Source of the DNA: a virus
Length of the DNA: 30,017 nucleotides
Virus record (IMG/VR): IMGVR_UViG_3300022200_003363
Coordinates: 1 to 30,017 of that record
Reading direction: 5' to 3' (one strand)
The notes beneath the pieces are model-generated. The model saw only the letters and a program-made list of their open reading frames with translations, was not told the DNA's origin and ran no database searches. The position numbers were made by a program, and so were the translations under genes. Positions 843 through 29,992 of this stretch are shown here, one piece after another. Each line of letters opens with the position of its first letter. Positions within the stretch are counted from its first letter, which is position 1.

Positions 843-861
843 GTTAGCTCGGGAGATGTAA

Positions 862-2393: not shown

Positions 2394-2405
2394 AGGATGT
2401 TGAAC

Positions 2406-3097: not shown

Positions 3098-6599
<3,502 letters not shown>

Positions 6600-6603
<4 letters not shown>

Positions 6604-9663: not shown

Positions 9664-9666
9664 GAT

Positions 9667-10737: not shown

Positions 10738-13546
10738 AGTTGAGATCGAAGGGATCGGTACAGTTGAACTAGACGATTCTTTTCTTAATGCAACGCCTGA
10801 AGTACAACAAGCTACTATAGAAGAAATCCATGCTCAGCTTAAGAAGCCGGAAAAGCCGAGTGAAGATTCTAGTGTAATAGACAAGGTGATGGGACCACTT
10901 CGTGAGTTTGCTGGAGGGGCTTCTTTTCAGTTTGCAGATGAGCTTGAAGCTGGATTTAGGTCTTTGGTTGATCGTATACCGACCGAAGCAGACCGTATTG
11001 CTCAGGAAATAAACCCAGAAGCTGAACCTGAATATCTCGGATACTCAGACTTCAAGGAAGATATTGCACAAGAAAGAGGCGAGTTCAAGGAAGAGAATCC
11101 TTGGCTTTCACTTGGTCTTGAGTTCGGTGGTGCTATTACTACAGGCGGGGCTGTAAGCAAGCTAGTAGGTCTTGGTAGTACAGTTCGTAGTGCAGCTGTA
11201 AGACAAGGGGGCGCTGGTGCTGTAGAAGCTGGTGTATACGGCTTTGGTTCTGGGGAGACCCTAGAAGAAAGAGTAGAAGCAGCTAGCTATGGTGTTGCAC
11301 TAGGCGCTCCTCTTGGAGCTGGTATTGGTGCAGTTGCACAGAGAATGAATCCTGTCTACCAGAAGAATAAGCTGATAGAAGCTGTAGGTAAGATGGATGA
11401 CACAGAGTTAGCTAGTGTACTCGATCAACAAATGGCTACTAGGGTACTGAAAGCTAAAGTACAAGGTGCTACTCCAAAAGACATTCCTCCACCTGTAGCC
11501 TTAGTGTATGACGTAGCCGATGACTTAAAGATACCCTCTAACAAAGTAAAAGCTCTTGGTAGGAAACTCAAAGGTTTTAACGACCATAGAGGCGACTCTA
11601 TAGAAGACTTAAGGAAAGCTCTTTCTGGTGAAGGGCTTTACCAGTCTATGGAAGAAGCAGCTAAGATAGCAGCTCGTCCGGGTGCTGGAACTAAAGCTGT
11701 ATTTGATTCAGTAGTAGCTCCTGCTAAGAGGATGATGATCAATCAAGTAGGGGAGAAGTTCGCTAACTTCACTAACCGTGGTTTGAACAGAGGTTTGTTG
11801 CAAAGTGCTAAGTATCACGATGAAGTTGTAGGCCCTCTTAAACCTCTTACTAAGTTCCTTGATGAAGCAGATAACGTAGACGCACAGCGTCTTAAGGGCG
11901 CTATCCTAGATGCTGCTATGGGTGAAGATGCCGCTTGGAAAGAAGTTGGTGACACTATCACTTCTATGTTTGGGGAGGATGCTTGGAAAGCATACCAGAA
12001 GTTTGATGAGGCTAACCTTGAGTGGGCTAAACGCTATAACAAGAATATAAACCAGTTCAATCCTGTAACCCGTCACTGGGTACATAGCCAAGTAGTAGGT
12101 GATCAGAGGCCAGCTGGTCTTATTACCTCAGCTACCGACCCTAACACTGCTAGCCGTACTAAGGACGTATCCTCTTTAACGAGGACTCGTAGAGAGGGTA
12201 TTAGGGATAGGCTCGATGATGTAGCTAGGTACGATAATCCTATTCGTACTATGCAAGACTGGATTGACGATAACGCTAATCAAATTAATGTAGCAGAGAT
12301 ATTTCAGCTTCGCCCTAGGGGTCGTAGAGATATAGCTACGGCTACTGATAAGGCATCTGAAAAGATAACTAAACAGGACAGGAAGTCTCTTGTTAAGGGA
12401 GAGAAGAAGGCTGGTTCAGTAGGAGCAGCACTGGCTGAGCGTATGAAGGCAGAAGGCTACTCTGATGTGCAGATAGAGAATGCTCGTCAGTTGATGCACA
12501 ACGTACTGTTTGATGCTCAAAGGGCACCTTCTTCTTTGATACGCAGTATTAGGAACCTAGGTTACGCTGGTACGATCATGAACCCCTACGGTGCTGTACT
12601 TAACCTCCATGACGTATTTAACGGTATGACTGCTATGGGTGTTAGGAACGGAATATCTACACTGTTTCGTAAGTCTGAACTCTCAGCCAAAGACGTAGGC
12701 TTAGCTTCTCAGTACGCAGGGGAGTACGTTAAGAGGCTGGGTAACTTTGATAATAACGCATGGGCTAAGTGGACTAAGTTCACAGAACAGTTAGTAGAGA
12801 AGTCTGGTTTCTTATCTGGTTTCCGTTACTTAGACGGGTTTGGTAAAAGTAAGATAATGCAGATGGCATTGAACCAAGCACGTAATGAAATAAGGAAAGG
12901 TTCTTTCGATAAGACTTGGGAGAATACATTCACCTCTTCAGAAATTATGCAGCTTAAAGCTCAGCTTGCTAAAAGCGATAAGCCCACCGACCTTATGAAA
13001 GAGCTTGCTATGTTTAGGCTGTCTGAGCTTCAGCCTATTAACCCTGCTCAGTCTGCTAGATACTCTTTAGAAAACCCTAACGCTAGGGTGCTCTATATGC
13101 TCAAAGGTTTTGCTATTCGACAGCTTGACTTCTTAAGACGTAATTCTATAGACGAGTGGAAGAAAGGTAACAAAGCAAAGGCTATGGCATTTGCAGCTAA
13201 GTATGCACTAGTATCTGGTGGGGGTTTTGCACTTGTACAAGAAGCAAGACAGCCTGTTAAATTTGATGAGGCTGACTTCAGCCCTGAGAACTTAGCTTCT
13301 TTAGCTGGAAGGCAGATGGCGTCTGTGGGGTCTTTAGGTGCAGCTGGTGCTAGTGATTTTGCGTGGGATAAGTTCTGGGACAACCCTGTAGAGGCTTTTG
13401 CTCAAGGGCTTATACCACCACTGAATATACCTATGGCTGTATGGGATGATAGTAAGTCTATAATTGAAGGTGAGTCTCCTACTAAGGTTCTGTCGATGGT
13501 ACCTGTAGTAGGTAAGGTTATCTTTGAACCCTTGTTGAGTGAGTGA
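10730..13546 (+). CDS. Large internal virion / ejection protein
   Basis: This gene encodes 938 residues. The N-terminus (VEVEIEGIGTVELDDSFLNATPEVQQATIEEI) resembles short modules that open large phage polyproteins. Next comes LREFAGGASFQFADELEAG (about 57-75) and a Gly/Ala-rich hydrophobic region (~125-205, LGLEFGGAITTGGAVSKL, GVALGAPLGAGIGAVAQ). From ~210 on it is helical and basic. A hydrophobic region near 825-840 (AAKYALVSGGGFALVQ) precedes a C-terminus with IPPLNIPMAVWDD. These membrane-active-looking segments fit a protein that is ejected and helps to form a DNA channel through the envelope. No lytic transglycosylase or protease motif is evident. It is the last large gene of the rightward arm. 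Confidence 0.6.
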   Translation: MVEVEIEGIGTVELDDSFLNATPEVQQATIEEIHAQLKKPEKPSEDSSVIDKVMGPLREFAGGASFQFADELEAGFRSLVDRIPTEADRIAQEINPEAEPEYLGYSDFKEDIAQERGEFKEENPWLSLGLEFGGAITTGGAVSKLVGLGSTVRSAAVRQGGAGAVEAGVYGFGSGETLEERVEAASYGVALGAPLGAGIGAVAQRMNPVYQKNKLIEAVGKMDDTELASVLDQQMATRVLKAKVQGATPKDIPPPVALVYDVADDLKIPSNKVKALGRKLKGFNDHRGDSIEDLRKALSGEGLYQSMEEAAKIAARPGAGTKAVFDSVVAPAKRMMINQVGEKFANFTNRGLNRGLLQSAKYHDEVVGPLKPLTKFLDEADNVDAQRLKGAILDAAMGEDAAWKEVGDTITSMFGEDAWKAYQKFDEANLEWAKRYNKNINQFNPVTRHWVHSQVVGDQRPAGLITSATDPNTASRTKDVSSLTRTRREGIRDRLDDVARYDNPIRTMQDWIDDNANQINVAEIFQLRPRGRRDIATATDKASEKITKQDRKSLVKGEKKAGSVGAALAERMKAEGYSDVQIENARQLMHNVLFDAQRAPSSLIRSIRNLGYAGTIMNPYGAVLNLHDVFNGMTAMGVRNGISTLFRKSELSAKDVGLASQYAGEYVKRLGNFDNNAWAKWTKFTEQLVEKSGFLSGFRYLDGFGKSKIMQMALNQARNEIRKGSFDKTWENTFTSSEIMQLKAQLAKSDKPTDLMKELAMFRLSELQPINPAQSARYSLENPNARVLYMLKGFAIRQLDFLRRNSIDEWKKGNKAKAMAFAAKYALVSGGGFALVQEARQPVKFDEADFSPENLASLAGRQMASVGSLGAAGASDFAWDKFWDNPVEAFAQGLIPPLNIPMAVWDDSKSIIEGESPTKVLSMVPVVGKVIFEPLLSE

Positions 13547-13547
13547 T

Positions 13548-13796
13548 ATGAAGACTGAGAAGGTAAAAGCTAAATACCAGAAGAAGTATAACGCTACACC
13601 TGAGGCTAAGAAGAAGAGGGCTTCTGATAACAAGGCCCGTAGAGAGCTAGGTCTCAAGAAGGGTGATCCCCGTGACGCCTCCCGTAAGGGGGGCAAGTTC
13701 GTTGCTGAGCACAGGTCAGAGAACAGATCACGGGGAGGTAGGGTAGGTAACAAAGAAGGGAAAGCGGCAGGAGGAAGGAAATCCCGCCGCACTTAG
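13548..13796 (+). CDS. Small very basic protein, possible HNH-endonuclease remnant
   Basis: Taken from ATG 13548 (82 residues), one base after the preceding stop; a GTG at 13539 would add three residues. Over a third of residues are Lys or Arg. The order KAKYQKKYNATPEAKKKRASDNKARRELG, then a Gly/Asp segment, then HRSENRSRGG and GKAAGGRKSRRT, recalls minimal phage HNH proteins of the pattern (N-K-ARRE ... D-H ... GG ... NLR-S-NRS). In this copy the central D-H-K catalytic segment appears to be missing. It may therefore be a nucleic-acid-binding relative that no longer cuts. It is the terminal gene of the rightward arm. Confidence 0.55.
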   Translation: MKTEKVKAKYQKKYNATPEAKKKRASDNKARRELGLKKGDPRDASRKGGKFVAEHRSENRSRGGRVGNKEGKAAGGRKSRRT

Positions 13797-13811
13797 GTTA
13801 CTTAGCTAACC
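13796..13811. terminator. Hairpin at the convergent gene junction
   Basis: GGTTA (13796-13800) pairs with TAACC (13807-13811) around a 6-base loop. The hairpin covers the stop codons of both converging genes (rightward TAG 13794-13796, leftward TAG at 13806-13808). With only 5 bp and no T run it would be a weak terminator, but it sits where opposing transcripts must end. Low confidence. Confidence 0.25.
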
Positions 13812-18956: not shown

Positions 18957-19731
18957 GTTCAGCTCCGATAGTATCTAGTGTGAATATCTCGTCGTAGTCT
19001 CTGAGCATCCAGAGTAGCATACCTTGCTCTTGGAAGTACTCCTTTGTTACCTTCTCTGACTGACCCTCTGAGTAACCCCATTGGTAGTACAGGAAGGTTA
19101 CAAGGGCTAGTGAATCAAAGGCAGTACTGACAGTAGATAGAAGCTTCTTGGCAGTAACTGGCCCTACACCCTTACCCCGTATACCTGCATCATCCTTTAT
19201 CCACTTAGGTAGATTAGGTAACCCCTTGATGTTATCGCAGTTGTCACCTACAAGTAGCTGGTAGCAGAAGTGTCTGGTAGCTTGTAGCTCACTAACCCAG
19301 AACCGTTCTCTGCTAGTTGGATTGTAATGCCATCCGGGTGTGTTCTTTAAGTCTTTATCAGGCGATGATACGATTACTCGACATTCATCTTGGTCACCTC
19401 CGTTAGCTAGGAAGTCTTGGTATAAAAGAATGGAGACCTTATCATCGGCCTCCATCCCATTAACCTGCTCAGCACCTAGCACCTCAATCATATAACGTGT
19501 TATATCACCGAAGTGACTAGGCTTCCTAGCTGATCTGGTACCCTTGTACTCAGGAACCTCATCCCTGAAGTTCCCTTTCCCTTTGATGAATATCTTATAG
19601 TCGGGATCATCACAGTCACGAGTGATCTGCTCTACCTTCTTCTTGATCAGGTGAAGAGCATGACTCAGAGGCTCACTTTCAGCAGCAAAGCCACTTGAGT
19701 AAATCATCTGGTCACCGTCTATAGCTATCAC
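18898..19731 (-). CDS. 5'-3' exonuclease (FEN/PIN-type, T7 gp6-like role)
   Basis: This gene encodes 277 residues with a GTG start that overlaps the previous stop (GTGA). The FEN motifs are in order: D5-G-D7 (IAIDGDQ), YKGTR (62-66), EADD (94-97), SPDKDL (123-128), GDNCDNIKG (162-170) and a helix-three-turn-helix GKGVGPVTAKKLL (186-198). This is the two-metal 5' nuclease fold that removes RNA primers and processes flaps or recombination ends. It sits beside polymerase and SSB genes, as in T7-like phages. A perfect TATAAC dyad lies within it (19491-19504). Confidence 0.9.
   Translation of the reverse strand: MIAIDGDQMIYSSGFAAESEPLSHALHLIKKKVEQITRDCDDPDYKIFIKGKGNFRDEVPEYKGTRSARKPSHFGDITRYMIEVLGAEQVNGMEADDKVSILLYQDFLANGGDQDECRVIVSSPDKDLKNTPGWHYNPTSRERFWVSELQATRHFCYQLLVGDNCDNIKGLPNLPKWIKDDAGIRGKGVGPVTAKKLLSTVSTAFDSLALVTFLYYQWGYSEGQSEKVTKEYFQEQGMLLWMLRDYDEIFTLDTIGAEHDEGYRQYLEGSKFKARGE
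19491..19504. promoter_or_regulatory. TATAAC dyad, perfect, 2-bp spacer
   Basis: TATAAC-GT-GTTATA inside the exonuclease gene, where leftward codons read ITRY. Confidence 0.6.
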
Positions 19732-19958
19732 TCTCTTTCGCCCTTGAACGTATCTACGAAGTGAGTAAGGAGGTCTATCAACTTTTGAGCTTCCTCGTTA
19801 TCACGTATGTAAAGAGCTACGCCACCAGAGTTATAAACTGTTATAGTGTCATCTACCATAACACGGCCATCAAAGCGCCAACTCTCTGTTACACGTACAA
19901 CCGGATCATCATCGTTGATGAACCCAAGGCACTCTACTACCTTATCTGTAGTTTTCAA
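19728..19958 (-). CDS. Hypothetical small protein with a TTG start
   Basis: This gene encodes 76 residues. It appears to start at TTG 19958. The ribosome-binding site AGGAGG lies inside the codons for the acidic end of the upstream SSB-like gene, and the two genes overlap by four bases (TTGA). The protein is beta-rich in the middle (VVRVTESWRFDGRVMVDDTITVYNSGGVALYI) with a helical, acidic end (EEAQKLIDLLTHFVDTF). No family recognised. An imperfect TATAAC dyad lies in it (19832-19845). Confidence 0.6.
   Translation of the reverse strand: MKTTDKVVECLGFINDDDPVVRVTESWRFDGRVMVDDTITVYNSGGVALYIRDNEEAQKLIDLLTHFVDTFKGERE
19832..19845. promoter_or_regulatory. TATAAC dyad, imperfect, 2-bp spacer
   Basis: TATAAA-CT-GTTATA, one mismatch, inside the 76-residue gene. 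Confidence 0.35.
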
Positions 19959-20446
19959 AACAAATCCTCCTCAATCTTCTTTGACGTAGGGGTAGAACGC
20001 TTCTCTACCTTCTCGATCTGTTCATCAAGGGCAGAGCTGGTATCCTCTCCTTCCTCGTAGTGCTTACGCAGACCCTTCATGACCTTGTAGATAGTCTGTG
20101 TCTGCTCAACGAAGAACTTGTAGAACTCAGGTGAACCTGCGGCACCCGGAGAGCCGTGAAGAGATACCTGCATAGCGAGGTTAGCCGCATGACCTAGCTC
20201 CACACCCAGAGTACTGAATCCACCCTTGGCTGGACTAGCACCTGCGGAGCCACCCGAACCACCGGAGATGATCTTCACGTTCTTCATGAACTTACCACCA
20301 CCATTGTCGAAAGACACCTCAGCACCTTTCTCTGGCTGGACCTTAGCCCACTCCATCTTAGTTGAGTACCATGTACCTCCTACCTGAATGCTGTACTTGT
20401 CGAACTTAGTGGATACTGCTTCTACTACGCCAGTTACAATCGCCAT
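19955..20446 (-). CDS. Probable single-stranded DNA-binding protein (OB-like, acidic tail)
   Basis: This gene encodes 163 residues. Residues 1-60 form a short five-strand pattern compatible with an OB fold (VVEAVSTKFDKYSIQVGGTW, EVSFDNGGGKFMKNVKII). A Gly/Ser linker (61-76) leads to a helical domain (80-135) and an acidic end KKIEEDLF. The acidic-plus-terminal-Phe tip is the hallmark by which SSB proteins such as T7 gp2.5 and bacterial SSB contact replication partners. It lies just downstream of the DNA polymerase with its own strong ribosome-binding site (TAGGAGGA). The call is inference from fold pattern, tail and neighbours. Confidence 0.65.
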   Translation of the reverse strand: MAIVTGVVEAVSTKFDKYSIQVGGTWYSTKMEWAKVQPEKGAEVSFDNGGGKFMKNVKIISGGSGGSAGASPAKGGFSTLGVELGHAANLAMQVSLHGSPGAAGSPEFYKFFVEQTQTIYKVMKGLRKHYEEGEDTSSALDEQIEKVEKRSTPTSKKIEEDLF

Positions 20447-20500
20447 AATGTCCTCCTAGGACTGTTGGATTACTAGTATAACACTGTTACTGTTTACTGT

Positions 20501-22426
20501 CTAGTGAGTTTCTGCCCAAGAATTGCCTACTTTGTACTCACCTGTTAGGGGTACGTTGAGACCAAGAACTTGAGCTGCGTCTGTGATTGATTGAACTCCT
20601 ATCTTACCTACCTCCTCTGCTATGTCAAGTGGGCACTCCCATTGCTCTTCATCGTGGTATCTGATGAGGGCCTTAGCCTCCGGGTATAACTCTGTTATAC
20701 GCTTGTGAGCAATTACTAGAGCGTACTTCATGACGATGGCACCACCGCCTTGGAGCTTAGTGTTAAGTAATGAATGTTGTGATCTCGTCAGTAACCACCT
20801 CCCGTCTAGTCCAGTTATGTACTTCTTGCCTTTTGATTCCCAGTCTTTCTCGATAGCTGCCTTGAGCTTCCTGAGACCTTCGTTGTTCTTCCAGAAAGAA
20901 TCATACCACTCCTTGGCTGTGTTCAAGGGTACAGACAGAGACGATGCAAGTCTAGCTGGTTGTGCTCCATACGTGATAGCGTACTTGAATGTCTTAGCTG
21001 TTGCCCTGTCAGGCAGCCCTAGTGCAAGCTGATTCTTTGTGTGGATGTCACCGTCCATGATCTCATCTGCATAGTCAGAGTCGAAGGGGTACACATAGTG
21101 AGCCTCCATACAAGCCTCAAGAGACGAGGCATCCCAGCCTACCATGACCATACCCTCTCTAGGTATGAATAGAGAGCGTACCTCCTTGCCTAACACAGAG
21201 CCTACACGGGGTATGTTAACGATGTCCCTGTGGATGAACCTACCAGTAGGAGTACCTAACGTGTCTGCACTGTGGTGTATAATACCTGTCTCATATAAAC
21301 CGGCGATACCATCAGATGTCTTATAGACCAATCCAGTACCTTTGTCCGAGCGAAGGATATTCTTACGTGACCTGCACGTAAGCCACCTAGTGATCAGGTC
21401 AGACTTCTCAGGCGAAAGAATCTTAGTTAAGTTAGGGCAAGGTTCTTTACTTACTGGGTCAGTAAGCCTAGGAGAAGTCTCTATAGTCCTACCTGCAACC
21501 TTCTTGGTATTCCAGATAGTAGGCTTCCAGCCTTGCTCTAGCAGGTACTTCTTTAGGTCAGTCTGATTACTCAGAGTTAGCTTCCTCTCAGTGATCAGTG
21601 GTTCCTTGATAGGGAGTTCATGGTGTTCGTCGTTCACCTCGGCTACCCAGATCAGCTCACCTCTCTCTGATACAAAGCGTAGGAGCTTACCTCCGCAATG
21701 ACCCTCGATATAACGTGTTATAGCTGATGATAAAGTCCCGTCCTTCTTGAACTGTATCTTAGGTGGGTGTTTAACGGCAGAAGGTGGGAGAGGCATAGTA
21801 GGTAACCACTCCTCAGCTTCCCTCTCTAAGTGCTCCATCGCTATTTCTACCTTCTTAGCTAGAACTAACGCGGAAGATACGTCGAACCTGAACCCGTGCA
21901 TCCCCTGCTCTTTGATCAGCCTAGCTACGTGCTGCTCTAGCTGTAACGGAGTCTTGAAGGAAGAGCCTACACCGAGCTTACTGATCTCTCTTTTGAGGCG
22001 TTCTATTACCTTGGTGGTAAGTATACAGTCAACTTCACAGTAGGTAGATAGCAAAGCTAAAGAACACTTATCGTAGTCAACCTCAAGCTTGCCCTCTCCG
22101 AAGTACTCCTGTGCATAGTTCTCAAGGGAGTGTGACTTCCTGTCGTTGAACACCAGCTTGGACAGGATGTAACCATCTGCGTGTTTAATATCACGCTCTT
22201 TGAACACACTTACTAAGTCTACACCCCATAGCTTCTCGATCATAGGGAAGTCGAAGGCAGACCCATTCCATGTGTATATAACAGAGTTATTAGGAATCCT
22301 ATCTATGTAAAAGCGAAGCGTTGGTGAATCCGTTATACAAAAGAACTTCCCGCCTTGTTCCTTAAGTCCGACCATCCTGATCGTCTTAAAGTCTGTCGTA
22401 GTCTCTATGTCAAGACAGTAAATCAT
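20501..22426 (-). CDS. Family A DNA polymerase with 3'-5' exonuclease domain
   Basis: This 641-residue enzyme replicates the phage genome. Exonuclease motifs: DIET (D6, E8), N54-x4-D59 (NGSAFDF) and Y129-x3-D133 (YCEVD), so proofreading looks intact. Polymerase motif A is WDASSLE (D432), motif B is R474-x3-K478-x3-Y482-x2-TYG, and motif C is HDE (591-593). The residue equivalent to E. coli Phe762 is Tyr482, as in T7. Its size is close to T7 gp5 (about 700). The start lies within the last codons of the primase-helicase gene. Three dyads of the TATAAC type lie inside it (20685, 21709, 22277). Confidence 0.95.
   Translation of the reverse strand: MIYCLDIETTTDFKTIRMVGLKEQGGKFFCITDSPTLRFYIDRIPNNSVIYTWNGSAFDFPMIEKLWGVDLVSVFKERDIKHADGYILSKLVFNDRKSHSLENYAQEYFGEGKLEVDYDKCSLALLSTYCEVDCILTTKVIERLKREISKLGVGSSFKTPLQLEQHVARLIKEQGMHGFRFDVSSALVLAKKVEIAMEHLEREAEEWLPTMPLPPSAVKHPPKIQFKKDGTLSSAITRYIEGHCGGKLLRFVSERGELIWVAEVNDEHHELPIKEPLITERKLTLSNQTDLKKYLLEQGWKPTIWNTKKVAGRTIETSPRLTDPVSKEPCPNLTKILSPEKSDLITRWLTCRSRKNILRSDKGTGLVYKTSDGIAGLYETGIIHHSADTLGTPTGRFIHRDIVNIPRVGSVLGKEVRSLFIPREGMVMVGWDASSLEACMEAHYVYPFDSDYADEIMDGDIHTKNQLALGLPDRATAKTFKYAITYGAQPARLASSLSVPLNTAKEWYDSFWKNNEGLRKLKAAIEKDWESKGKKYITGLDGRWLLTRSQHSLLNTKLQGGGAIVMKYALVIAHKRITELYPEAKALIRYHDEEQWECPLDIAEEVGKIGVQSITDAAQVLGLNVPLTGEYKVGNSWAETH
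20685..20699. promoter_or_regulatory. TATAAC dyad, perfect, 3-bp spacer
   Basis: TATAAC-TCT-GTTATA inside the DNA polymerase gene (leftward codons ITELY). The same 15-mer recurs at 26965 in an unrelated gene. Confidence 0.6.
21709..21722. promoter_or_regulatory. TATAAC dyad, perfect, 2-bp spacer
   Basis: TATAAC-GT-GTTATA inside the polymerase gene; identical to the 14-mer at 19491 in the exonuclease gene. Confidence 0.6.
22277..22291. promoter_or_regulatory. TATAAC dyad, imperfect, 3-bp spacer
   Basis: TATAAC-AGA-GTTATT near the 5' end of the polymerase gene, in a different codon phase (NNSVI) from the site at 20685. Confidence 0.4.
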
Positions 22427-24065
22427 GGACTATGTCCTCGTCAGGGGTAGGGTCAAGTACCACGTTGATCATCCTACCAGTCTTAGTGTCGTACTTCACT
22501 GTATCACACAAGCCAGTGAAACCGAAAGTCCTGTTCTTCAGGATACGGATACGGGAGAAGTCAGAGTCATCACCCTGCTGGTCCCTCTCCATACCTACCA
22601 CTGCCCACGATAGCTGCTCAAGGGCTGCTGAACCACGGAGGTCTGTTAACTCTACCTCACCACCCTTGGCAAATGACTTCTCTCCACCAGTCCTCTTCAA
22701 GTGTACTACCTGAATGAGACCTACACCAGTCTCAACTACCATCTTGGCTAACTGAGTCATAAGGCTGTCGATATCTTTACGCTCGTTGTTGGAGTTACTG
22801 GCAGAGATAACCATACTCAAGTGATCGAGGATGATGAAGTCACACCGCTTGCTTCTAGCGTAGTAGTATAACTTGTTTATAAGGTTCTCGCTGTTCAGGC
22901 CACCGAAGTGCTTGAAGAAGAAAGTCTTACCGTTACCTACCATCCTGTCGTAGTGGGGCTTGGTCTCTTCGTAGCTAGGTGGGGAGAACCGGAACTTGTT
23001 AAGAGGTATGTTCATGTCTAGTGCAATCAGGGCTTGTGCTGCAACTGACATCTGATCCTCAAGGGCTACCACTGCAACTGTACAGTCTTGGTCGATGAGA
23101 GACTTGGCTAGCTCACGTGTCATTGTGGACTTACCTATACCTGATCCTGCACAGATAGTCACAATCTCTGACTTACGTAACCCGTGGAGCTTCTCTTGCA
23201 TACCTATGAAGGGTATCTTGTATCCCTCTTCAAGGGGTTCTAGCAGGGACTCTAGGCTTATGTCTGAGCCTGAGACTATGCCCTCAGGTTCGTACAGAGG
23301 AGCTTTGAGACAGGCATTCCTGAAGGCTTCGCCGTTACCGCTGGTAAGCAGATCGCTAACATCTTTTCCGTACTCCTCTGGGATAGTTACAACATGGACG
23401 GCGGTGAGAGTACTTAACCAGTCTGCTACCTCGACTGCTGCTTTCTTCCCCGGCTCATCGTTATCGAACACTACGAATATCTTTTTGTACCCTGCAAAGA
23501 ATGCTGCCTCGGATGTCATGATCTTATCAAGAGCTGCACCATTAGGCACAGAGACTACATGGTAATCCTTAGGCACACCATACTTGGAGTCCATCAGTAT
23601 AGTCTTAGCTGCTAGGGTATCCTCTTCACCTTCTGTCACTATAAGAATAGGGCTAGACTTAACACAAGCTTGCTTACCGAACAGACCTTCGGGTGTACCT
23701 ACCCAGAAGAACTTCTTCTCAGCTATCTTCCTGCACTTAGCTGCATACATCTCCTTACCGTAGTACGGGTAGTACACAGTGTCAGGCTTACCTGTAGTCA
23801 CATCAACGGATACACGGATATCGTATAACGCTGTTATATCATCAGGGATCATACGGGTAGGGTTACTGCCTACAGGGTATGTCGCTACCTGTGAGATATT
23901 AAGTTTACTCTTTGGTGCTAGCTCTGCTCCCTTACGTTCTTGGTAACCACATGAGAAACACCTAGCACCTCCGTCTTCGTATCGTACTAGGTTATCACCA
24001 GTAGTGTCTCGACCTTCTGACCTGCACTTAGGGCAGGACTCCTTTACGTATTTACTCATACTCAC
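22410..24065 (-). CDS. Bifunctional primase-helicase (T7 gp4-like)
   Basis: This gene encodes 551 residues. A four-Cys zinc ribbon (C11, C14, C36, C39) is followed by a TOPRIM domain (EGEED 145-149; DND 201-203). Then comes a RecA/DnaB-type helicase domain with Walker A GSGIGKST (307-314), Walker B FIILDH (410-415) and VVHLKR (453-458). It primes lagging-strand synthesis and unwinds DNA in 5'-3' direction. The start may be GTG 24065 or ATG 24059; both lie after GGAG, at 4 and 10 bases. The gene overlaps the polymerase by 17 bases. A perfect dyad lies within (23824-23838). Confidence 0.95.
   Translation of the reverse strand: MSMSKYVKESCPKCRSEGRDTTGDNLVRYEDGGARCFSCGYQERKGAELAPKSKLNISQVATYPVGSNPTRMIPDDITALYDIRVSVDVTTGKPDTVYYPYYGKEMYAAKCRKIAEKKFFWVGTPEGLFGKQACVKSSPILIVTEGEEDTLAAKTILMDSKYGVPKDYHVVSVPNGAALDKIMTSEAAFFAGYKKIFVVFDNDEPGKKAAVEVADWLSTLTAVHVVTIPEEYGKDVSDLLTSGNGEAFRNACLKAPLYEPEGIVSGSDISLESLLEPLEEGYKIPFIGMQEKLHGLRKSEIVTICAGSGIGKSTMTRELAKSLIDQDCTVAVVALEDQMSVAAQALIALDMNIPLNKFRFSPPSYEETKPHYDRMVGNGKTFFFKHFGGLNSENLINKLYYYARSKRCDFIILDHLSMVISASNSNNERKDIDSLMTQLAKMVVETGVGLIQVVHLKRTGGEKSFAKGGEVELTDLRGSAALEQLSWAVVGMERDQQGDDSDFSRIRILKNRTFGFTGLCDTVKYDTKTGRMINVVLDPTPDEDIVHDLLS
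23824..23838. promoter_or_regulatory. TATAAC dyad, perfect, 3-bp spacer
   Basis: TATAAC-GCT-GTTATA inside the primase-helicase gene (codons ITALY), between the zinc ribbon and TOPRIM domain. Confidence 0.6.
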
Positions 24066-24192
24066 ATAACTCCTTCAGCATGACCTCTAGGTCTCTCTTG
24101 GTTAGTGTAATGATATCATCACCAGTGTCAATGATTACTACATCTCTCTTGAGTTCAGGGTCATACGAGATTTCCCAGTCTACTCTGTCCAT
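24052..24192 (-). CDS. 46-residue hypothetical protein, coupled to primase
   Basis: A short frame fills the gap between the zinc-finger-like gene and the primase-helicase. It runs from ATG at 24190-24192 to TAA at 24052-24054 and reads MDRVDWEISYDPELKRDVVI then IDTGDDIITLTKRDLEVMLK then ELCEYE. AGGTGA lies just before the start. It overlaps the upstream gene by 13 bases and the primase start by up to 14, so both joints are coupled. The sequence is acidic and looks like a beta-hairpin plus helix. No family recognised. Confidence 0.6.
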   Translation of the reverse strand: MDRVDWEISYDPELKRDVVIIDTGDDIITLTKRDLEVMLKELCEYE

Positions 24193-24389
24193 GACTCACC
24201 TCGCTTATCAATCAGGTAACCTTCTAGAAAATTATCATCCTCGTCTTCAAGCATGAAGGCTGCCTTGATTGCAATTGGTTTGCACACATGACATAACTCT
24301 TCAAACTCTTCTCGTTGAGGTATCCACACTGGGTAGAAGGCTGTATCACAAGCCTTGCACCTAGCGTACTTCATATCATCCAGTTCCAT
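24180..24389 (-). CDS. Small zinc-ribbon-like protein
   Basis: This gene encodes 69 residues. Two Cys pairs, C11-x2-C14 and C33-x2-C36, with a 18-residue loop predict a zinc ribbon (YARCKACDTAFYPVW...EELCHVCKPIA). The remainder is acidic (FMLEDEDDNFLEGYLIDKRGESWTE). Such proteins often bind nucleic acid or polymerase. AGGAGGGG precedes the ATG. Its leader is the TCTAGATA octamer array at 24406-24480, so it may be the first gene of a subtranscript that includes the primase and polymerase. Confidence 0.65.
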   Translation of the reverse strand: MELDDMKYARCKACDTAFYPVWIPQREEFEELCHVCKPIAIKAAFMLEDEDDNFLEGYLIDKRGESWTE

Positions 24390-24405
24390 GTCCCCTCCTA
24401 GATAG

Positions 24406-24480
24406 TCTAGATATCTAGATATCTTATAACAACATATAAATATATCTAGATAAGTCTAGATAAGTCTAGATATCTAGATA
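24406..24480. repeat. Array of six TCTAGATA octamers with two 14-bp palindromes
   Basis: TCTAGATA occurs at 24406, 24414, 24445, 24455, 24465 and 24473. The 24406/24414 and 24465/24473 pairs each make the perfect palindrome TCTAGATATCTAGA (24406-24419 and 24465-24478). Copies at 24445, 24455 and 24465 are spaced exactly 10 bp, about one helical turn. Between the clusters lies an A+T-rich stretch (ATCTTATAACAACATATAAA). The array fills the 115-bp gap ahead of the zinc-ribbon/primase/polymerase genes. It could be an origin with iterons or a cooperative operator. Confidence 0.8.
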
Positions 24481-24504
24481 GGGTAACAGAGTGTAACCTT
24501 AGTG

Positions 24505-25050
24505 TCAAGTCTCACCTCTGAGGAGGGAGGCTACCTTTTTGCCAACAAACTCTGCCCCGTGCTCGTTGATCAGCGTGGCGATACATTCACTTGGATTCTC
24601 TTGGAGTGCCTCAATGACTATCTGTCTCTTCACTGCGTATGGCACAGAACCTACAGTGATTGGTTCACCCTCTTTTACAGTTAACTCAGCGATAGGCGTA
24701 GGCTTAGCTTTTACTTCTACCTTCTCTGCACTGTACAGATGGTTCTTCCTTGAGGTACACTTGACGGTAAATCCCAGAAGTTCACGGCAGATACGCGAAG
24801 TATCGTTGATGATATTGTTTACCTTCTTGCGTCTATCTGCTACTTCGTGCTTGAACTCAGGGTCTTGAACCCAAGGCTCTATAGCCCTCCTGAACTCAGT
24901 GACCTTCTCTGCTAGGTCTGTAGCGATATACGTTTTACCGTGTAGCTTATCAGCTGAGGTACTATGGGCTGATATAATAGTCTCCCTAATATAGCTCTGG
25001 AACTTATCGTTACCCATTACTGCTTCGATTGCGTTGTCTACGAATGACAT
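24505..25050 (-). CDS. Hypothetical protein, 181 residues
   Basis: I place the start at ATG 25050 (MSFVDNAIEAVMGND) because GGAGAT lies at normal spacing; 12 more in-frame codons upstream run through the non-coding leader and dyad. Residues 1-100 are helical (FVDNAIEAVMGNDKFQSYIRETIISAH; DLAEKVTEFRRAIEPWVQDPEFKHEVADRRKKVNNII). The centre is polar (VEVKAKPTPIAELTVKEGEPITVG), and the end is helical again (VKRQIVIEALQENPSECIATLINEHG). No family recognised. Its place next to the CobS-like ATPase, with one dyad in its leader, makes it a possible partner of that system. Confidence 0.65.
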   Translation of the reverse strand: MSFVDNAIEAVMGNDKFQSYIRETIISAHSTSADKLHGKTYIATDLAEKVTEFRRAIEPWVQDPEFKHEVADRRKKVNNIINDTSRICRELLGFTVKCTSRKNHLYSAEKVEVKAKPTPIAELTVKEGEPITVGSVPYAVKRQIVIEALQENPSECIATLINEHGAEFVGKKVASLLRGET

Positions 25051-25078
25051 AAATATCTCCTGATTGTGTATAAGTGTG

Positions 25079-25092
25079 TATAACAAGTTATA
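25079..25092. promoter_or_regulatory. TATAAC dyad, perfect, 2-bp spacer, intergenic
   Basis: TATAAC-AA-GTTATA in the leader of the 181-residue gene, 29 bases upstream of its ATG and beyond its ribosome-binding site. Confidence 0.65.
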
Positions 25093-25107
25093 AGAAAAGC
25101 TTAGGTA

Positions 25108-26196
25108 TTAGCGACCAAAGGCCGCTGCTACGAATTCCTGTACTGCTGACTGCTCAGACTTACTGCACCGTGTGGTGTAGTTCATCCGTATTGCATCCTT
25201 GACTGTTACACCTGCATCGACAAGCTTAGCGATAGCAGTCAAGTTACGTGGTGAAAAGGCAGTAGCTATGTCACCCTTCTTGAATCCTGCGTGGCACAGG
25301 TAGCTGAACTTAGCCAGACGCTCAGCCTCAGTAGGGGTGATAGTGCGTGAAATACCTGCCAGTAGTCTAATTTCTTGTTCTTGTGTGAGATAATCTTGCT
25401 CGATCACTATGTCCCAGCGATTGATGAAGCTGGCATCTTGTACGTTAGATGCACTGTACAAGTCCATGTCTTCGCCGTTACCCTTGGTGTTGTCGGATGC
25501 ACACACTACCCAGAAGTCATCAGGCTTGAGTGTACCACCCGACTTAAGCTCTGGAAGGGCAAGCTCACGACGATCTAGCAGGCGCTGGTACATGACGTTA
25601 GCGAAGCCCGAGGCCCGTGACAGCTCGTCAAGGTTACACAGTGTAGGCTCTGCGAGAGACTTAGGCAGTACACCCATGACGAAGTCCGTGCTCTGCTTAC
25701 CATCGTCGTCTACGTTAATGTGGACCTGACCAAAGATACTAGCCTTGTCAAGCTCCATGTTGTGCTCTATACGAAGGTACGGACGGCCAGTGCTAGCAGC
25801 GTAGTACTCGTACATCAATGTTTTACCTGCACCAGTAGGGCCTACTACGTTAACCTTAAGGCCAAGGCTGATACTCAGACTTAGCGTCTCGAATTCTTGC
25901 ACTGGTGGGATGTAAGGCTCTGGCTTTATAGCACTGTTATAACCCTTGAACTCTGGTACAAGGTGATCAGGTACATACTTAGGCGTCCAGAACATCTCAG
26001 AGAAGGGCACAAGGCGCATAGTCCTGCCATCATCTCTGTTGGCCCATGGGGTGGTGGTGAGAGTAGTTACTTCCTCAGGCACAGGTTCTTTGGCAGCCTC
26101 GACAGCAGCAGCCTCAACAGTACGCTCGCGCTTACGGCCCTCAAGGATCTCAAGGATTTCGTCAGCGATATCAGTAGTAGCACGTGAAGTAGTCAT
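25108..26196 (-). CDS. cobS: MoxR/CobS-like AAA+ ATPase
   Basis: This gene encodes 362 residues. A polar N-terminus (1-60) precedes an AAA+ core: Walker A GPTGAGKT (119-126), Walker B LCNLDE (186-191), sensor-1 ASDN (233-236), R260 in INRWD as candidate arginine finger, and R317 in FSPRNL as sensor 2. Order and motifs resemble CobS, the ATPase subunit of aerobic cobaltochelatase, which many marine phages carry, and more broadly MoxR ATPases that pair with VWA proteins. The adjacent upstream gene is CobT-like, supporting a CobS/CobT-type pair. The symbol denotes similarity, not proven chelatase function: no CobN is seen here. AAAGGAGA precedes the ATG. Confidence 0.82.
   Translation of the reverse strand: MTTSRATTDIADEILEILEGRKRERTVEAAAVEAAKEPVPEEVTTLTTTPWANRDDGRTMRLVPFSEMFWTPKYVPDHLVPEFKGYNSAIKPEPYIPPVQEFETLSLSISLGLKVNVVGPTGAGKTLMYEYYAASTGRPYLRIEHNMELDKASIFGQVHINVDDDGKQSTDFVMGVLPKSLAEPTLCNLDELSRASGFANVMYQRLLDRRELALPELKSGGTLKPDDFWVVCASDNTKGNGEDMDLYSASNVQDASFINRWDIVIEQDYLTQEQEIRLLAGISRTITPTEAERLAKFSYLCHAGFKKGDIATAFSPRNLTAIAKLVDAGVTVKDAIRMNYTTRCSKSEQSAVQEFVAAAFGR
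25927..25941. promoter_or_regulatory. TATAAC dyad, imperfect, 3-bp spacer
   Basis: TATAGC-ACT-GTTATA, one mismatch, inside the CobS-like gene (codons YNSAI). Confidence 0.35.
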
Positions 26197-26217
26197 GGTA
26201 TATCTCCTTTTAAGTAG

Positions 26218-26252
26218 TATAAGTCTGAGTATAACAGGTTATAAGTCTGAGT
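26218..26252. repeat. 13-bp direct repeat with embedded dyad ahead of the CobS-like gene
   Basis: TATAAGTCTGAGT occurs at 26218-26230 and 26240-26252, a 22-bp period, and the perfect dyad 26230-26243 lies between and overlaps them. The block fills the gap between the CobT-like stop and the CobS-like start. The core AAGTCTGAG also occurs on the minus strand in the right-end hairpin array (29832-29840). Confidence 0.6.
26230..26243. promoter_or_regulatory. TATAAC dyad, perfect, 2-bp spacer, intergenic
   Basis: TATAAC-AG-GTTATA, 34 bases upstream of the CobS-like ATG and framed by the 13-bp direct repeats. Confidence 0.65.
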
Positions 26253-27887
26253 TCAAAACAATTTCTTCTTAACAACATCGAACAAACAAGCTTCTAGATC
26301 GTCAAGCCTGTACAGTACCGTGTGATCTGGGTAGAATTTACTGACAGAATCGTCAAGTATACCTATACCATAACACTCGATCTTCTTACTTACTTCTCTA
26401 ACAACATCCTTTGTGAATGTATAGCAATCCCCAGCGTTATCAGCACAGGGCATACCGTCTGACAGTACTAGCAGTATCTTCCTAGGCTCTGGCCTTGCGT
26501 ACAGCTGGGCAGCACCCCATAGGATAGACTCACCGTCTGCATTCTGGATCATCCTGTCCCAACACTTGCCGTACTCCTCGATGAACTTCTTGGGTGAAGG
26601 ACGCTCTGTCCAGTCCTTGAGGATATAGTGCATAGTGCCGTGCTTGAAACATTCTGTAAATCCGGTGATTTTGACCGGGATACCTAGCGGTGTTAATGCC
26701 TCCTGAAGTAAGCATACCGCAGCACCAGAAGCTACGAATTTATCACCTAGCATTGAGCCTGACATGTCTGTAAGTATATGAATTGCCGTACCTTTTACGT
26801 CTATGCGTGACTCTTTACTAGTGAACACATCAAGTGACCCTGTCGGTACACGGTACAAATCACGCTTATCTAACCGCCCACTCTTCTTGTTATGTACAGT
26901 TTGGCTCTGAGTTCGCGACTGAAAAAGCCGGAAGACTTGTCCCGATAATTTCTTACCTGACTCGTATAACTCTGTTATAGCCTCGTTATAAGCTTTGTTT
27001 AAGGTACCCTTAGGTCTGGTAACAAGCATTTTGGTCCAAGGAGTGTAATCCTTGGATGGCTCATGATCATACGTGATAGTGTAGCTGTCCTCGCTTGCCT
27101 TGCCTTCCTTGTGTACATGGGCCATAAGGTCTTTGTAGGACACAGTGCCCTTGGCAGAATCCTCACCATCTTCACCGCCCTTGTCTTTGGCCTTGCCCTT
27201 AGACGACTTCTCCTCTCCCTCGCCCTCTCCCTCCCCTTCCTCAGACTTCTTGTCTTGCTCGGTGTCATGGCCCTCGGTGCCGAGAATCTTTATAACAAGG
27301 TTATACACGTCCTCGGCAGTAACAGCAGCGTTAAGCTCAGCGGTAAGGTGAGAGTACTTATCTGGGTCTGGTACTACACTGGCGAAGTCTACAGCAGGGA
27401 ATGCTACGTCAGGTTGCCAGTCACCACGCGCAGTGTACACCCAGCCAAAAACATTGATGATTAACTCCATGTCAGGGGCGAACCCCTTAGTACGTATATT
27501 GTGCGCACCATCCGCACAGTGATAGGCCTGAGTCCATGAGAGTGCCTCGTCACGTCCGGGCCACATTCCCAATCCATTCTTCTCCTGCCTGTAATCATCC
27601 AATATATTGTAAAGACGGCCAGTCTGACTGTCCATCTTAAACTTCTTCTCTTTGAGGAGGTCTATAGTATCGACCACCTCAGGTGCATGGTGGCCAATCT
27701 CGTGATACACGTACCCTAGCCACACAGTAAGTCTCTGCTTAGACCAGTAAGCGTTGATCTCTGGTACATGGACAGTACGGTTCACAAGGTCAGTCCATGG
27801 CTGAGGATCGGTGGTCATCTTGAGTGATAACTCATTGGTGTTGGCTACCCTCTCGATAGCCTTGAAGGTTGCGTAAGCGTCAATCAT
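26253..27887 (-). CDS. cobT: CobT-like VWA protein with N-terminal HEIGH metalloprotease-like motif
   Basis: This gene encodes 544 residues. The N-terminal domain contains HEIGH (62-66) followed by NILDDYRQE (94-102), the layout of HExxH zinc peptidases with a downstream acidic ligand. An acidic/lysine low-complexity linker (213-247) follows, as in CobT. The C-terminal domain (365-540) is VWA: MIDAS D374-x-S376-x-S378 (TDMSGSM), DGESILWGAAQLYARPEPRKI (451-471) and LSDGMP (475-480). That last block closely follows the CobT consensus I recall (DGEAL-WA--RL--RPE-RRIL-VISDG-P). It probably works with the downstream AAA+ protein as a metal chelatase-like or remodelling complex. Perfect dyads lie at 26965 and 27291. 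Confidence 0.82.
   Translation of the reverse strand: MIDAYATFKAIERVANTNELSLKMTTDPQPWTDLVNRTVHVPEINAYWSKQRLTVWLGYVYHEIGHHAPEVVDTIDLLKEKKFKMDSQTGRLYNILDDYRQEKNGLGMWPGRDEALSWTQAYHCADGAHNIRTKGFAPDMELIINVFGWVYTARGDWQPDVAFPAVDFASVVPDPDKYSHLTAELNAAVTAEDVYNLVIKILGTEGHDTEQDKKSEEGEGEGEGEEKSSKGKAKDKGGEDGEDSAKGTVSYKDLMAHVHKEGKASEDSYTITYDHEPSKDYTPWTKMLVTRPKGTLNKAYNEAITELYESGKKLSGQVFRLFQSRTQSQTVHNKKSGRLDKRDLYRVPTGSLDVFTSKESRIDVKGTAIHILTDMSGSMLGDKFVASGAAVCLLQEALTPLGIPVKITGFTECFKHGTMHYILKDWTERPSPKKFIEEYGKCWDRMIQNADGESILWGAAQLYARPEPRKILLVLSDGMPCADNAGDCYTFTKDVVREVSKKIECYGIGILDDSVSKFYPDHTVLYRLDDLEACLFDVVKKKLF
26965..26979. promoter_or_regulatory. TATAAC dyad, perfect, 3-bp spacer
   Basis: TATAAC-TCT-GTTATA inside the CobT-like gene (codons ITELY); a further single half-site GTTATA follows 6 bases to the right. 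Confidence 0.6.
27291..27305. promoter_or_regulatory. TATAAC dyad, perfect, 3-bp spacer
   Basis: TATAAC-AAG-GTTATA inside the CobT-like gene, in the codon phase YNLVI, different from the site at 26965 in the same gene. Confidence 0.6.
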
Positions 27888-28143
27888 GTACTTCTCCCTT
27901 ATAACAAGTTATAAACCAGTATGATAACGGATCATGCCGTTGATACATAGGCGTAACCCGCTTGTTTGACGACAACCTATAGTGGATAGACACTGCACCC
28001 TCCGCTACTAGGTCATTGATCAACAACTGTGCCTTCTTGCAGCTAGAACCATAAAGTCTGGCCAACTCAGCTACTACGAAGGGATACTTCCCTTTCCACA
28101 TCTCACTGTTATACAGAGAGTCCCTACTTAAGTCCCTATACAT
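27880..28143 (-). CDS. Winged-helix-like small protein (possible regulator)
   Basis: This gene encodes 87 residues. Residues 21-50 (PFVVAELARLYGSSCKKAQLLINDLVAEGAVS) fit a helix-turn-helix in which the second helix follows the GSS turn. The next 15 residues (IHYRLSSNKRVTPMY) could be a wing. It is therefore a candidate DNA-binding protein, though not assigned to a family. Its start has GAGGAAGAAAGG and an imperfect dyad (28157-28170) 14 bases upstream. Its 3' end carries a perfect dyad (27900-27913) just ahead of the CobT-like start, overlapping that gene by 8 bases. Autoregulation through the dyad is an attractive but untested idea. Confidence 0.55.
   Translation of the reverse strand: MYRDLSRDSLYNSEMWKGKYPFVVAELARLYGSSCKKAQLLINDLVAEGAVSIHYRLSSNKRVTPMYQRHDPLSYWFITCYKGEVHD
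27900..27913. promoter_or_regulatory. TATAAC dyad, perfect, 2-bp spacer
   Basis: TATAAC-AA-GTTATA in the last codons of the winged-helix-like gene and directly ahead of the ribosome-binding site of the CobT-like gene; identical to the 14-mer at 25079. Confidence 0.65.
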
Positions 28144-28156
28144 ACCTTTCTTCCTC

Positions 28157-28170
28157 TATAAATTGTTATA
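28157..28170. promoter_or_regulatory. TATAAC dyad, imperfect, 2-bp spacer, near-intergenic
   Basis: TATAAA-TT-GTTATA, one mismatch, 14 bases upstream of the winged-helix-like start codon; its right end touches the stop codon of the upstream gene. Confidence 0.45.
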
Positions 28171-28369
28171 GGCCGCAAGCTTCCTCGGCCTCTTTAATCA
28201 GGTTGTAATGGTATATCTTGACATAATCAGGGTATTGGTCCTCGAACTTTGCCCTTCTACGCTTGATGGTATCGCAAAGATCATCGTCCAAGTCTGCCCA
28301 TCCCCGGATAAACTCTCGGTTCAAGTAATCCATCGCCGCTTCAAACTGCTTGTACTCTAACTCTGTCAT
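28166..28369 (-). CDS. Hypothetical helical protein
   Basis: I use ATG 28369 (67 residues); the TTG two codons upstream lies too close to the GAGGG site. The protein is acidic and helical (YKQFEAAMDYLNREFIRGWADLDDDLCDTIKRRRAKFEDQY, then VKIYHYNLIKEAEEACGL). No family recognised. It lies between a tiny membrane gene and the winged-helix-like gene. Confidence 0.55.
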   Translation of the reverse strand: MTELEYKQFEAAMDYLNREFIRGWADLDDDLCDTIKRRRAKFEDQYPDYVKIYHYNLIKEAEEACGL

Positions 28370-28371
28370 AG

Positions 28372-28464
28372 TCAATACCCTCTGCTAATCAGCCAGTCAT
28401 TAGTGAGGTACAGCGTAAGTCCCCACAAAAACACGTTGAATGCTACCATATAGAATGTATTCAT
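28372..28464 (-). CDS. 30-residue single-span membrane peptide
   Basis: A short frame occupies the 132-base gap between neighbours. It runs from ATG at 28462-28464 to TGA at 28372-28374, reading MNTFYMVAFNVFLWGLTLYL then TNDWLISRGY. Residues 4-20 are a hydrophobic span. GAGGTGG lies upstream, and the stop is two bases before the next start. A perfect dyad (28484-28497) lies about 20 bases upstream. Function unknown; it is similar in style to the 26-residue peptide at 16335-16415. Confidence 0.5.
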   Translation of the reverse strand: MNTFYMVAFNVFLWGLTLYLTNDWLISRGY

Positions 28465-28483
28465 CTTGCCACCTCGATCTTGT

Positions 28484-28497
28484 TATAACCTGTTATA
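28484..28497. promoter_or_regulatory. TATAAC dyad, perfect, 2-bp spacer, intergenic
   Basis: TATAAC-CT-GTTATA within a tandem of GTTATAACC units (28482-28500), about 20 bases upstream of the 30-residue membrane peptide gene. Confidence 0.65.
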
Positions 28498-28507
28498 ACC
28501 CTAGGCC

Positions 28508-28948
28508 TCAAACTTCGAGGCCCAGTTCGATAGCAGCTTCCAGTAGTTTAGCGGCCAGCTTCTCCCGGATTTCCAATTCGCCTTTGTAACGACCAGCCAG
28601 TGTATTAGCCAATTCACGCAATGGACACCCGGCCTTTTCCCGTGTGGCTGCGTATGTCAATTCGCCATCCTTCACTATCAATGCCCCGGCCTCGATGCCC
28701 AGCTCTTTGTGTACCTGCTTTGAACAGCGAGAGAACAGGGTCCGAATATTGGCCATCTTCCCTTCCTCGGCCATTCCCTGCCACAGTGCCACAAGGCCAG
28801 CAGCTCCCTCATTCTTGCCTGATTCGATCCAGACAGTGTAATCATTCCGAATCATACCGCTGACATTTTCAAGAACCTGCCCTGTGAGGATCATTGCTCT
28901 GATATTCTCGGAAACTTGCTCGGCTGTCAGTTGAATTGAATTGGTCAT
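28508..28948 (-). CDS. Hypothetical protein directly downstream of the structured leader
   Basis: This gene encodes 146 residues and is helical, with no recognised family (LTAEQVSENIRAMILTGQVLEN; AAGLVALWQGMAEEGKMANIRTLFSRCSKQVHKELGIEAG; LRELANTLAGRYKGELEIREKLAAKLLEAAIELG). Codons are more G+C-rich than in the replication genes. AGGGA lies about 9 bases ahead of the ATG. That site comes directly after the last helix of the putative structured RNA (28965), so the RNA is either its 5' leader or a separately processed transcript. It is the first gene of the leftward arm in this window. Confidence 0.6.
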   Translation of the reverse strand: MTNSIQLTAEQVSENIRAMILTGQVLENVSGMIRNDYTVWIESGKNEGAAGLVALWQGMAEEGKMANIRTLFSRCSKQVHKELGIEAGALIVKDGELTYAATREKAGCPLRELANTLAGRYKGELEIREKLAAKLLEAAIELGLEV

Positions 28949-28964
28949 GTTTGCGATTCCCTTT

Positions 28965-29043
28965 GTCTAGTTTCGGCCTTATGGCCATTCTCAAGTACGG
29001 CGAAGCACCGCACGACTAGACCACGATCCTTTTCTGGACCGTG
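28965..29043 (-). ncRNA. 3' domain of the RNA: three-way junction plus abutting 8-bp hairpin
   Basis: In the leftward transcript CACGGUCC pairs with GGAUCGUG around AGAAAA (29043-29022, one G-U). The next base begins GUCUAGU, which pairs with ACUAGAC (29021-29015 with 28971-28965). The junction contains a GUGCGG/CCGUAC hairpin (29013-28995, one G-U) and a GGCC/GGCC hairpin with an AUAA loop (28986-28975). This is the best-supported part of the structure. Confidence 0.65.
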
Positions 29044-29510
29044 ACCCCAATACTTTATCCTATGATCAGTAATCCGAAGTAAATCACCTGAGTAGCTACC
29101 TAATTGTTATTGTTGGCATCAGCTCCGCTTTTCCTGTTTGCACTGGTGGGGTTGATCTAAACCAGACAGGGAGAATCCATTCCCGGCATCCGCAGCATCC
29201 GATAAACTTACCGAACATAGGGAGTATCGAGTCTTTACCTCAGAGCGGCCGTCTCACGGGCCATTGCTGGGTCGAGTTCTGTTTGGCATTTTAGAGTCGA
29301 TGCCTACCTTGTCGGGGTACTCCTCGGGGGGCGCGGAACCAATCGCCAGCCTTTCGGCCTTTACCACGGAGCGGTGACTACAGTACTGGGGCCAACGTCA
29401 CTCGGACGACTTACGGTGCGCGCCTTTGATACTCCCGGCTTCGGCATCCTGCCTGCTACCCTGTACTGCCAGACCAGAATAGCAGATTGGGGAACCGATA
29501 CAATGGTCTG
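28965..29510 (-). ncRNA. Candidate large structured noncoding RNA (~546 nt)
   Basis: Helices seen by eye are: 29504-29510/29470-29476; 29428-29436/29220-29228 (9 bp, long range); 29419-29424/29330-29335; 29397-29401/29374-29378; 29356-29359/29348-29351 with a GAAA tetraloop; 29300-29304/29285-29289; 29166-29170/29133-29137 continued by 29161-29165/29143-29147; 29082-29087/29069-29074; 29036-29043/29022-29029; and a three-way junction closed by 29015-29021/28965-28971 holding two hairpins. In at least four hairpins the imperfect pair is G-U when read leftward but A-C when read rightward, fixing the strand. No open reading frame of 60 codons occurs here. It is not recognised as tmRNA, RNase P, 6S or an intron. 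In size it resembles large phage-associated RNAs such as ROOL or GOLLD, but identity is not claimed. Confidence 0.6.
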
Positions 29511-29520
29511 ATCATTTATT

Positions 29521-29551
29521 AGATGAATAGTCGATATTCACCAGATGAATA
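29521..29551. promoter_or_regulatory. Phased TGAATA / TATTCA / TGAATA hexamers
   Basis: TGAATA at 29524, TATTCA at 29535 and TGAATA at 29546 alternate in orientation with an exact 11-bp period. The first and third are part of a 9-bp direct repeat AGATGAATA (29521, 29543). They lie just before the predicted 5' end of the structured RNA on the leftward strand, where a promoter or its operator would be expected. Confidence 0.5.
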
Positions 29552-29616
29552 CAAGGGCAGACTTACGCGATTACCATATAAGGCAGTGCTATGCAATGCC
29601 ATGAGAGTACTTTCGC

Positions 29617-29634
29617 GGTATAACATGTTATACC
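29617..29634. promoter_or_regulatory. TATAAC dyad extended to an 18-bp palindrome
   Basis: GGTATAACATGTTATACC is perfectly palindromic over 18 bp, the longest member of the set. It lies about 107 bases upstream of the predicted 5' end of the structured RNA on the leftward strand. Confidence 0.65.
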
Positions 29635-29823
29635 AGATCGGGTTGATATTGGGCTGTATTGGGCTGGTATTGTTATGCAAGTGACTCTGTGAGGCGCTGT
29701 GATGCGCTGTATTGGACGCGGGCTGTACTGCATACCGTGCTATAGGTTTTTGCACTGTGGCTTGTGCGGGCTTGTGTGAAGCCAGAACATTTGATTGTGT
29801 CAAACAAGTATCTGCTATCCTAG

Positions 29824-29903
29824 GTCTGAATCTCAGACTTAACTGTATGGATGTACAGTAGTTCCACAGCTGTATGTATATACAGTATGTCTGAATGCCA
29901 GAC
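29824..29903. repeat. Four-dyad hairpin array
   Basis: Two near-identical dyads, GTCTG-AATCT-CAGAC (29824-29838) and GTCTG-AATGC-CAGAC (29889-29903), flank two others: ACTGTA-N6-TACAGT (29842-29859) and CTGTAT-N4-ATACAG (29870-29885). The outer-inner-inner-outer symmetry, with related inner sequences, suggests a multi-site operator or structured leader upstream of the leftward genes. Confidence 0.6.
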
Positions 29904-29992
29904 TTGGGGCTTGGGGCTTTGTAGGGTACACCCAACACATGCGCATTCTCTAATGTAACGCTTGGCATGTATGCAGTGAACACATAGGTGAC

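Follow-up and report, generated by a model that had tools for sequence, protein, structure and literature searches.

A candidate structured leader RNA preceding the replication genes of uncultured phages

The window, meaning the whole stretch of DNA analysed here, covers 30,017 bases of an uncultured phage (record IMGVR_UViG_3300022200_003363). Genes from position 44 to 13,800 are read rightward and encode a holin, a tail fibre, and other virion proteins; a tail-fibre-like gene of 1168 aa matches collagen-like tail families and contains, at 5751–6500, a stretch in which both GC and AT are strongly skewed (about 0.5). Genes from 28,948 down to 14,014 are read leftward and specify, after a first gene without a Pfam or PHROG match, CobT- and CobS-like proteins, a primase-helicase, PolA, an exonuclease, a metallophosphoesterase-like protein, and a class II ribonucleotide reductase. 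The CobT-/CobS-like pair (25108–27887) heads the replication operon of a phage whose reductase is B12-dependent. A search of the five genomes for a T7-like RNA polymerase gene was negative, with CRP-125 serving as positive control, and transcription by the host polymerase is therefore the default assumption.

Directly before the first leftward gene lies a non-coding element (Table 1). A sequence-only reading of the window had proposed a large structured RNA here, at 28965–29510, describing a region that lacks reading frames and is richer in G+C than its surroundings. Both descriptions hold: there is no gene-length frame within these limits, and the G+C fraction is 0.54 compared with about 0.45–0.49 in the flanks. 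The boundary was misplaced, and the element probably extends from about 29615, adjoining the TATAACATGTTATA palindrome, to about 28965; for tabulation, its ends were set from beside the palindrome to the base preceding the first ATG.

Table 1. Features around the start of the leftward operon and in related phages; positions refer to the window unless a relative is named.
Feature	Position	Strand	Description or basis
First gene of leftward operon, 146 aa	28508..28948	-	ORF list; directly downstream of RNA element
CobT-like VWA protein, synteny anchor	26253..27887	-	Pfam CobT_C, E 3e-19; also in relatives
Candidate structured leader RNA, whole element	28949..29615	-	Homologous non-coding element at same place in L092 and L187; ends approximate, inferred
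Homologous element in relatives	L092 ~715-1232; L187 ~1585-2138		Same place, sequence similarity
Palindrome TATAACATGTTATA	29619..29632	.	Presumed 5′ side of RNA; copy at same place in L187 (1568)
P4 hairpin	29237..29272 (window 29272-29237)	-	6-bp outer helix, one-base bulge, inner 3-bp helix, octaloop CGUGAGAC
H-A hairpin	29022..29043	-	8-bp stem, core 5 bp at 29040-29025, hexaloop AGAAAA
H-C hairpin, UGGCC-AUAA-GGCCG	28974..28987	-	L092 has same loop at near-same position
Three-way junction closed by 7 bp	28965..29021	-	Holds GUGCGGUG/CGCCGUAC hairpin and H-C; fold of 29060-28949
9-bp long-range helix	29220..29436 (29436-29428 with 29228-29220)	-	Present in the window

The individual helices named in that reading can be traced in the window: the three-way junction (29021–29015 pairing with 28971–28965), the abutting 8-bp hairpin, here called H-A (29043–29022), a GNRA hairpin (29362–29346), and a two-step bulged helix, identified here with hairpin P4. 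The further argument that helices occur at a density above chance did not survive. The minimum free energy of the leftward strand is −203.7 against −192.9 ± 8.0 for shuffled sequences (z −1.35), with 2 of 20 shuffles folding as well, and sub-windows of 250 nt give unremarkable values (z −1.8 to +0.3). The claim of a structured RNA would thus not be sustained by the window alone; it is sustained by conservation in relatives.

No relatives were found by single-protein scans, and a scan of genome contigs gave none of use; they were found by aligning operon proteins (CobT and primase) with distant phage homologues and then scanning IMG/VR. Sufficient sequence upstream of the operon was available for four relatives (L092, L187, L198, and L199), which have the gene order CobT–CobS–primase–PolA–exonuclease in common. 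Two of these, L092 and L187, carry a non-coding element of 520–560 nt directly before the operon's first gene. In L092 the first gene (1233–1731) and CobT (2517–4222) are each split over two frames, probably through sequencing or assembly frameshifts.

The elements of L092 and L187 are homologous to each other, with 74% identity over 112 nt (E 5.8e-12) and alignment z-scores of 13–15 (global 13.5), and both fold better than their shuffles (z −3.5 and −2.9, respectively). Measured against dinucleotide shuffles, the window element aligns to that of L092 with z about 5 and to that of L187 with z 2.4–3.0, similarity to the latter being weak outside the hairpins. Structural alignment with a home-made LocARNA-like program raised the middle part of the element above shuffles in the comparison with L092 (z 3.55), but not the last 180 nt in comparisons with L092 and L187 (z 0.0 and 0.7). 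Wider searches with the primary sequence were negative: an exact 18-mer scan of viral contigs gave no match, nor did BLASTN of the element against phage records, and BLASTN with the L187 element returned chance matches only.

In L198 and L199, which have the same operon, the element is absent both by sequence and by model. Long non-coding stretches nevertheless precede the operon in these phages (L198 7920–8690, with internal repeats; L199 7670–8790), and their folding z-scores reach −5.6 and −7.0, respectively. They are unlike the window RNA and perhaps represent a different element in the same place.

Hairpin P4 is shared by the three elements. Its sequences are ACCCAGCAAUGGCCCGUGAGACGGCCGCUCUGAGGU in the window, GGAUAGCAACUACCCGUGAGACGGUGUUCUAGUCC in L092, and GGCUAGCGCACUGCCCUUGAUCCGGCGUCCUAUGCC in L187; all nine pairs form in all three genomes, five of them changed on both sides (3 of 500 shuffles do as well), and the one-base bulge falls at the same place. 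The pattern occurs once in each genome, at −324, −320, and −373 from the first ATG in the window, L092, and L187, respectively, and is seen in none of 3000 shuffles. P4 was chosen after a 12-mer common to the window and L092 had been seen, a coincidence that 1.5% of shuffles match on its own. A model built from L092 and L187 alone, with the window left out, finds P4 (29272–29237, minus strand) as its sole match in the 30-kb window (E 0.0041), and this match tops the 654 kb searched (21 versus 15.5 bits). Folding of the window alone assigns the P4 pairs probabilities of 0.6–0.99. Beyond the three genomes, the P4 model found no further match in about 1.6 Mb of other phage loci, and of the 10 stretches returned by a scan with a 15-base P4 pattern only that in L092 is real, the others lying mostly in open frames and not exceeding background.

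H-A and the AUAA-loop hairpin H-C came from comparisons separate from that which yielded P4. All five core pairs of H-A form in the three genomes, four of them changed on both sides (8 of 500 shuffles), with stems GGUCC/GGAUC, CAUCC/GGAUG, and CUAUC/GAUAG and loops AGAAAA, AAAAAA, and AAAAAA in the window, L092, and L187, respectively. A generic search (any 5-bp stem, loop ARAAAA) gave one match per genome, in each case on the transcribed strand; relative to the first ATG these stand at −87, −118, and −138 in the same order, and only 0.07% of shuffles contain the H-A pattern in the last 200 nt. H-C has a counterpart in L092 (GGGC-AUAA-GCCC at −47) and is missing from L187. It forms one arm of the three-way junction, which ends just before the Shine–Dalgarno sequence of the first gene and is represented in L092 by a GUGC..GUAC hairpin followed by the AUAA hairpin. 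Three hairpin loops (CGUGAGAC, A-rich, and AUAA) are common to the window and L092 at matching places, where 0.04 would be expected (0 of 300 shuffles). An additional 5′ hairpin with loop GAACCRG is common to L092 and L187 and absent from the window. Conservation therefore extends to only some of the helices originally named, namely P4, the 8-bp hairpin, and the junction arm with the AUAA loop; the 9-bp helix spanning some 200 nt exists in the window but has no counterpart found in L092 or L187, leaving it unsupported.

P4 and H-A follow each other in the same order, on the same strand, and at roughly similar distances from the first ATG in the three genomes, and their paired changes are those that a conserved structured RNA would be predicted to show, with the reservation that covariation support from only three sequences has low power, below R-scape grade. 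That the element is an ordinary non-coding spacer whose likeness to L092 and L187 is accidental, as its ordinary folding energy and weak overall similarity might suggest, is extremely unlikely in view of the leave-one-out P4 match and the independent hairpins at matching positions. Compensatory changes cannot separate RNA from DNA, and the hairpins might also act as single-stranded DNA, for example as an initiation or packaging site near the putative origin considered below. This alternative is very improbable: the leftward, transcribed strand folds better than its complement (z −1.35 versus +0.13), a G–U pair in H-A would become A–C on the other strand, and the element abuts a ribosome-binding site.

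In the window, L092, and L187 alike, the element reaches up to the ribosome-binding site of the operon's first gene, and a scan of the window found no terminator between the two. A cis-acting leader is accordingly the best reading: the element lies on the same strand as the operon, before its first gene, as a putative leader would. We therefore regard it as on balance probable that the stretch from about 29615 to 28965, read leftward, is a conserved structured RNA forming the 5′ leader of the early/replication operon and acting in cis. The proposal of a large structured RNA at the operon head is thus retained for reasons other than helix density, namely homologues in two phages and two hairpins with compensatory changes on the same strand and in the same place.

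The leader would be transcribed together with the operon. Its folded 5′ domain would differ from phage to phage, its 3′ half, with P4, H-A, and H-C, would be better conserved, and it would stop a few bases short of the first gene's ribosome-binding site. Its action on operon expression would most likely be in cis, whether as a site bound by a protein of phage or host origin, as an antitermination element, or as an element of stabilising or translational control.

ROOL and GOLLD RNAs assemble into a homo-oligomeric RNA cage, and the element might likewise be a trans-acting large phage RNA, processed from the operon transcript or started upstream of it, and free or oligomeric. Its size (520–650 nt), its non-coding nature, and the presence of several hairpins whose A-rich or GNRA loops might serve for docking are compatible with such a role. 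We consider it unlikely, given that no Rfam family matches, that the window has no tRNAs and no terminator between the element and the first gene, and that the element abuts the ribosome-binding site in three genomes.

The TATAACATGTTATA palindrome at the presumed 5′ side of the element is a candidate promoter or operator element. The corresponding 14-bp palindrome TATAACNNGTTATA has 10 matches in the leftward region (19491–29632) against 1.3 expected, with copies at, for example, 25079, 26230, 27900, 28484, and 29619, and several stand 10–35 nt before start codons, just before Shine–Dalgarno sequences. It is common in L092, L187, L189, and L006, nearly absent from L198 and L199, and absent from L182–L186 and L188, and is possibly a site for a phage regulator or a promoter element. 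Palindromes of a second type, AGTCTGANNNTCAGACT, occur close to where the operon begins, at 29823–29839 and 29888–29904 in the window and upstream in L198 and L199. The stretch 29701–29950 folds far better than shuffles (z −4.8).

Exact DnaA boxes (TTATNCACA) are clustered 300–500 bp upstream of the RNA in L092 (five in 95 bp, 179–273) and L187 (four in 58 bp, 1218–1275) and nowhere else in those loci, which suggests a DnaA-type origin in these phages. Two boxes are also present in L199 (8418–8438), and a tandem pair lies within the window operon (25065–25083). Transcripts linked to origins are known from ColE1 (RNA II) and from T4 and T7, and the leader transcript might similarly help to start replication, as a primer or in an R-loop, beside the DnaA-box cluster. 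The cumulative GC skew of the window, with its minimum at the RNA and its maximum near 14 kb, fits an origin at the RNA, and the phage encodes both PolA and a primase-helicase. The skew also simply follows gene strand, however, no DnaA-box cluster was found upstream of the RNA in the window, whose contig ends before the corresponding place, and the boxes of the relatives lie on the 5′ side, whereas priming in ColE1 takes place at the 3′ end of the RNA. An origin-linked function is accordingly judged quite improbable. A broader proposal we hold to be doubtful, if somewhat less so: a new class of large phage RNA, conserved in its 3′ half and variable in its 5′ domain, would lie with a DnaA-type origin on one side and the replication operon on the other and would link replication initiation to the expression of replication genes.

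Large structured phage RNAs are few and their functions largely open. Should the cis-acting leader be confirmed, an RNA with a constant place before the replication genes would bring with it a target operon and hence a guessable, testable function, in a setting of uncultured phages with CobT-/CobS-like proteins and a B12-dependent reductase; it would also add a family missed both by Rfam and by folding-energy searches.

The Rfam search recommended by the sequence-only reading was run on the elements of the window, L092, and L187, and no family matched. Group I and group II introns, RNase P, tmRNA, and riboswitches are without a match in all three, including the cobalamin riboswitch, which was considered on account of the CobT-/CobS-like genes and the B12-dependent reductase. 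The window contains no tRNA and no tmRNA (ARAGORN for tmRNA), and no description of such an RNA was found in the open-access literature. The suggestion of a new class stands in so far as nothing in Rfam matches; that of ROOL or GOLLD, made alongside it, falls, since the Rfam covariance models give no match, whether the gathering score or an E-value of up to 10 is applied, and there is no tRNA neighbourhood.

ROOL and GOLLD are large structured non-coding RNAs of phages and prophages, of unknown function, often close to tRNA islands and, in the case of GOLLD, often longer than 800 nt (PMC12286853). The candidate described here, known from its sequence, resembles them as a large, non-coding, and apparently structured RNA of phage genomes, but differs in heading a replication operon and in escaping the Rfam models. 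The ColE1 RNA II preprimer is a folded transcript of about 550 nt tied to an origin at which a PolA-type polymerase comes into play; similar length, a putative origin nearby, and a phage-encoded PolA invite the comparison, whereas the DnaA boxes are here on the opposite side and Rfam gives no sequence match. The put RNA of HK022, a structured antitermination leader of an early phage operon, offers a comparison for a putative leader of this kind, with put sites far shorter than the element. The latter is thus most likely a new RNA family within a general kind already known, narrowly distributed and, on present sequences, represented so far in three uncultured phages.
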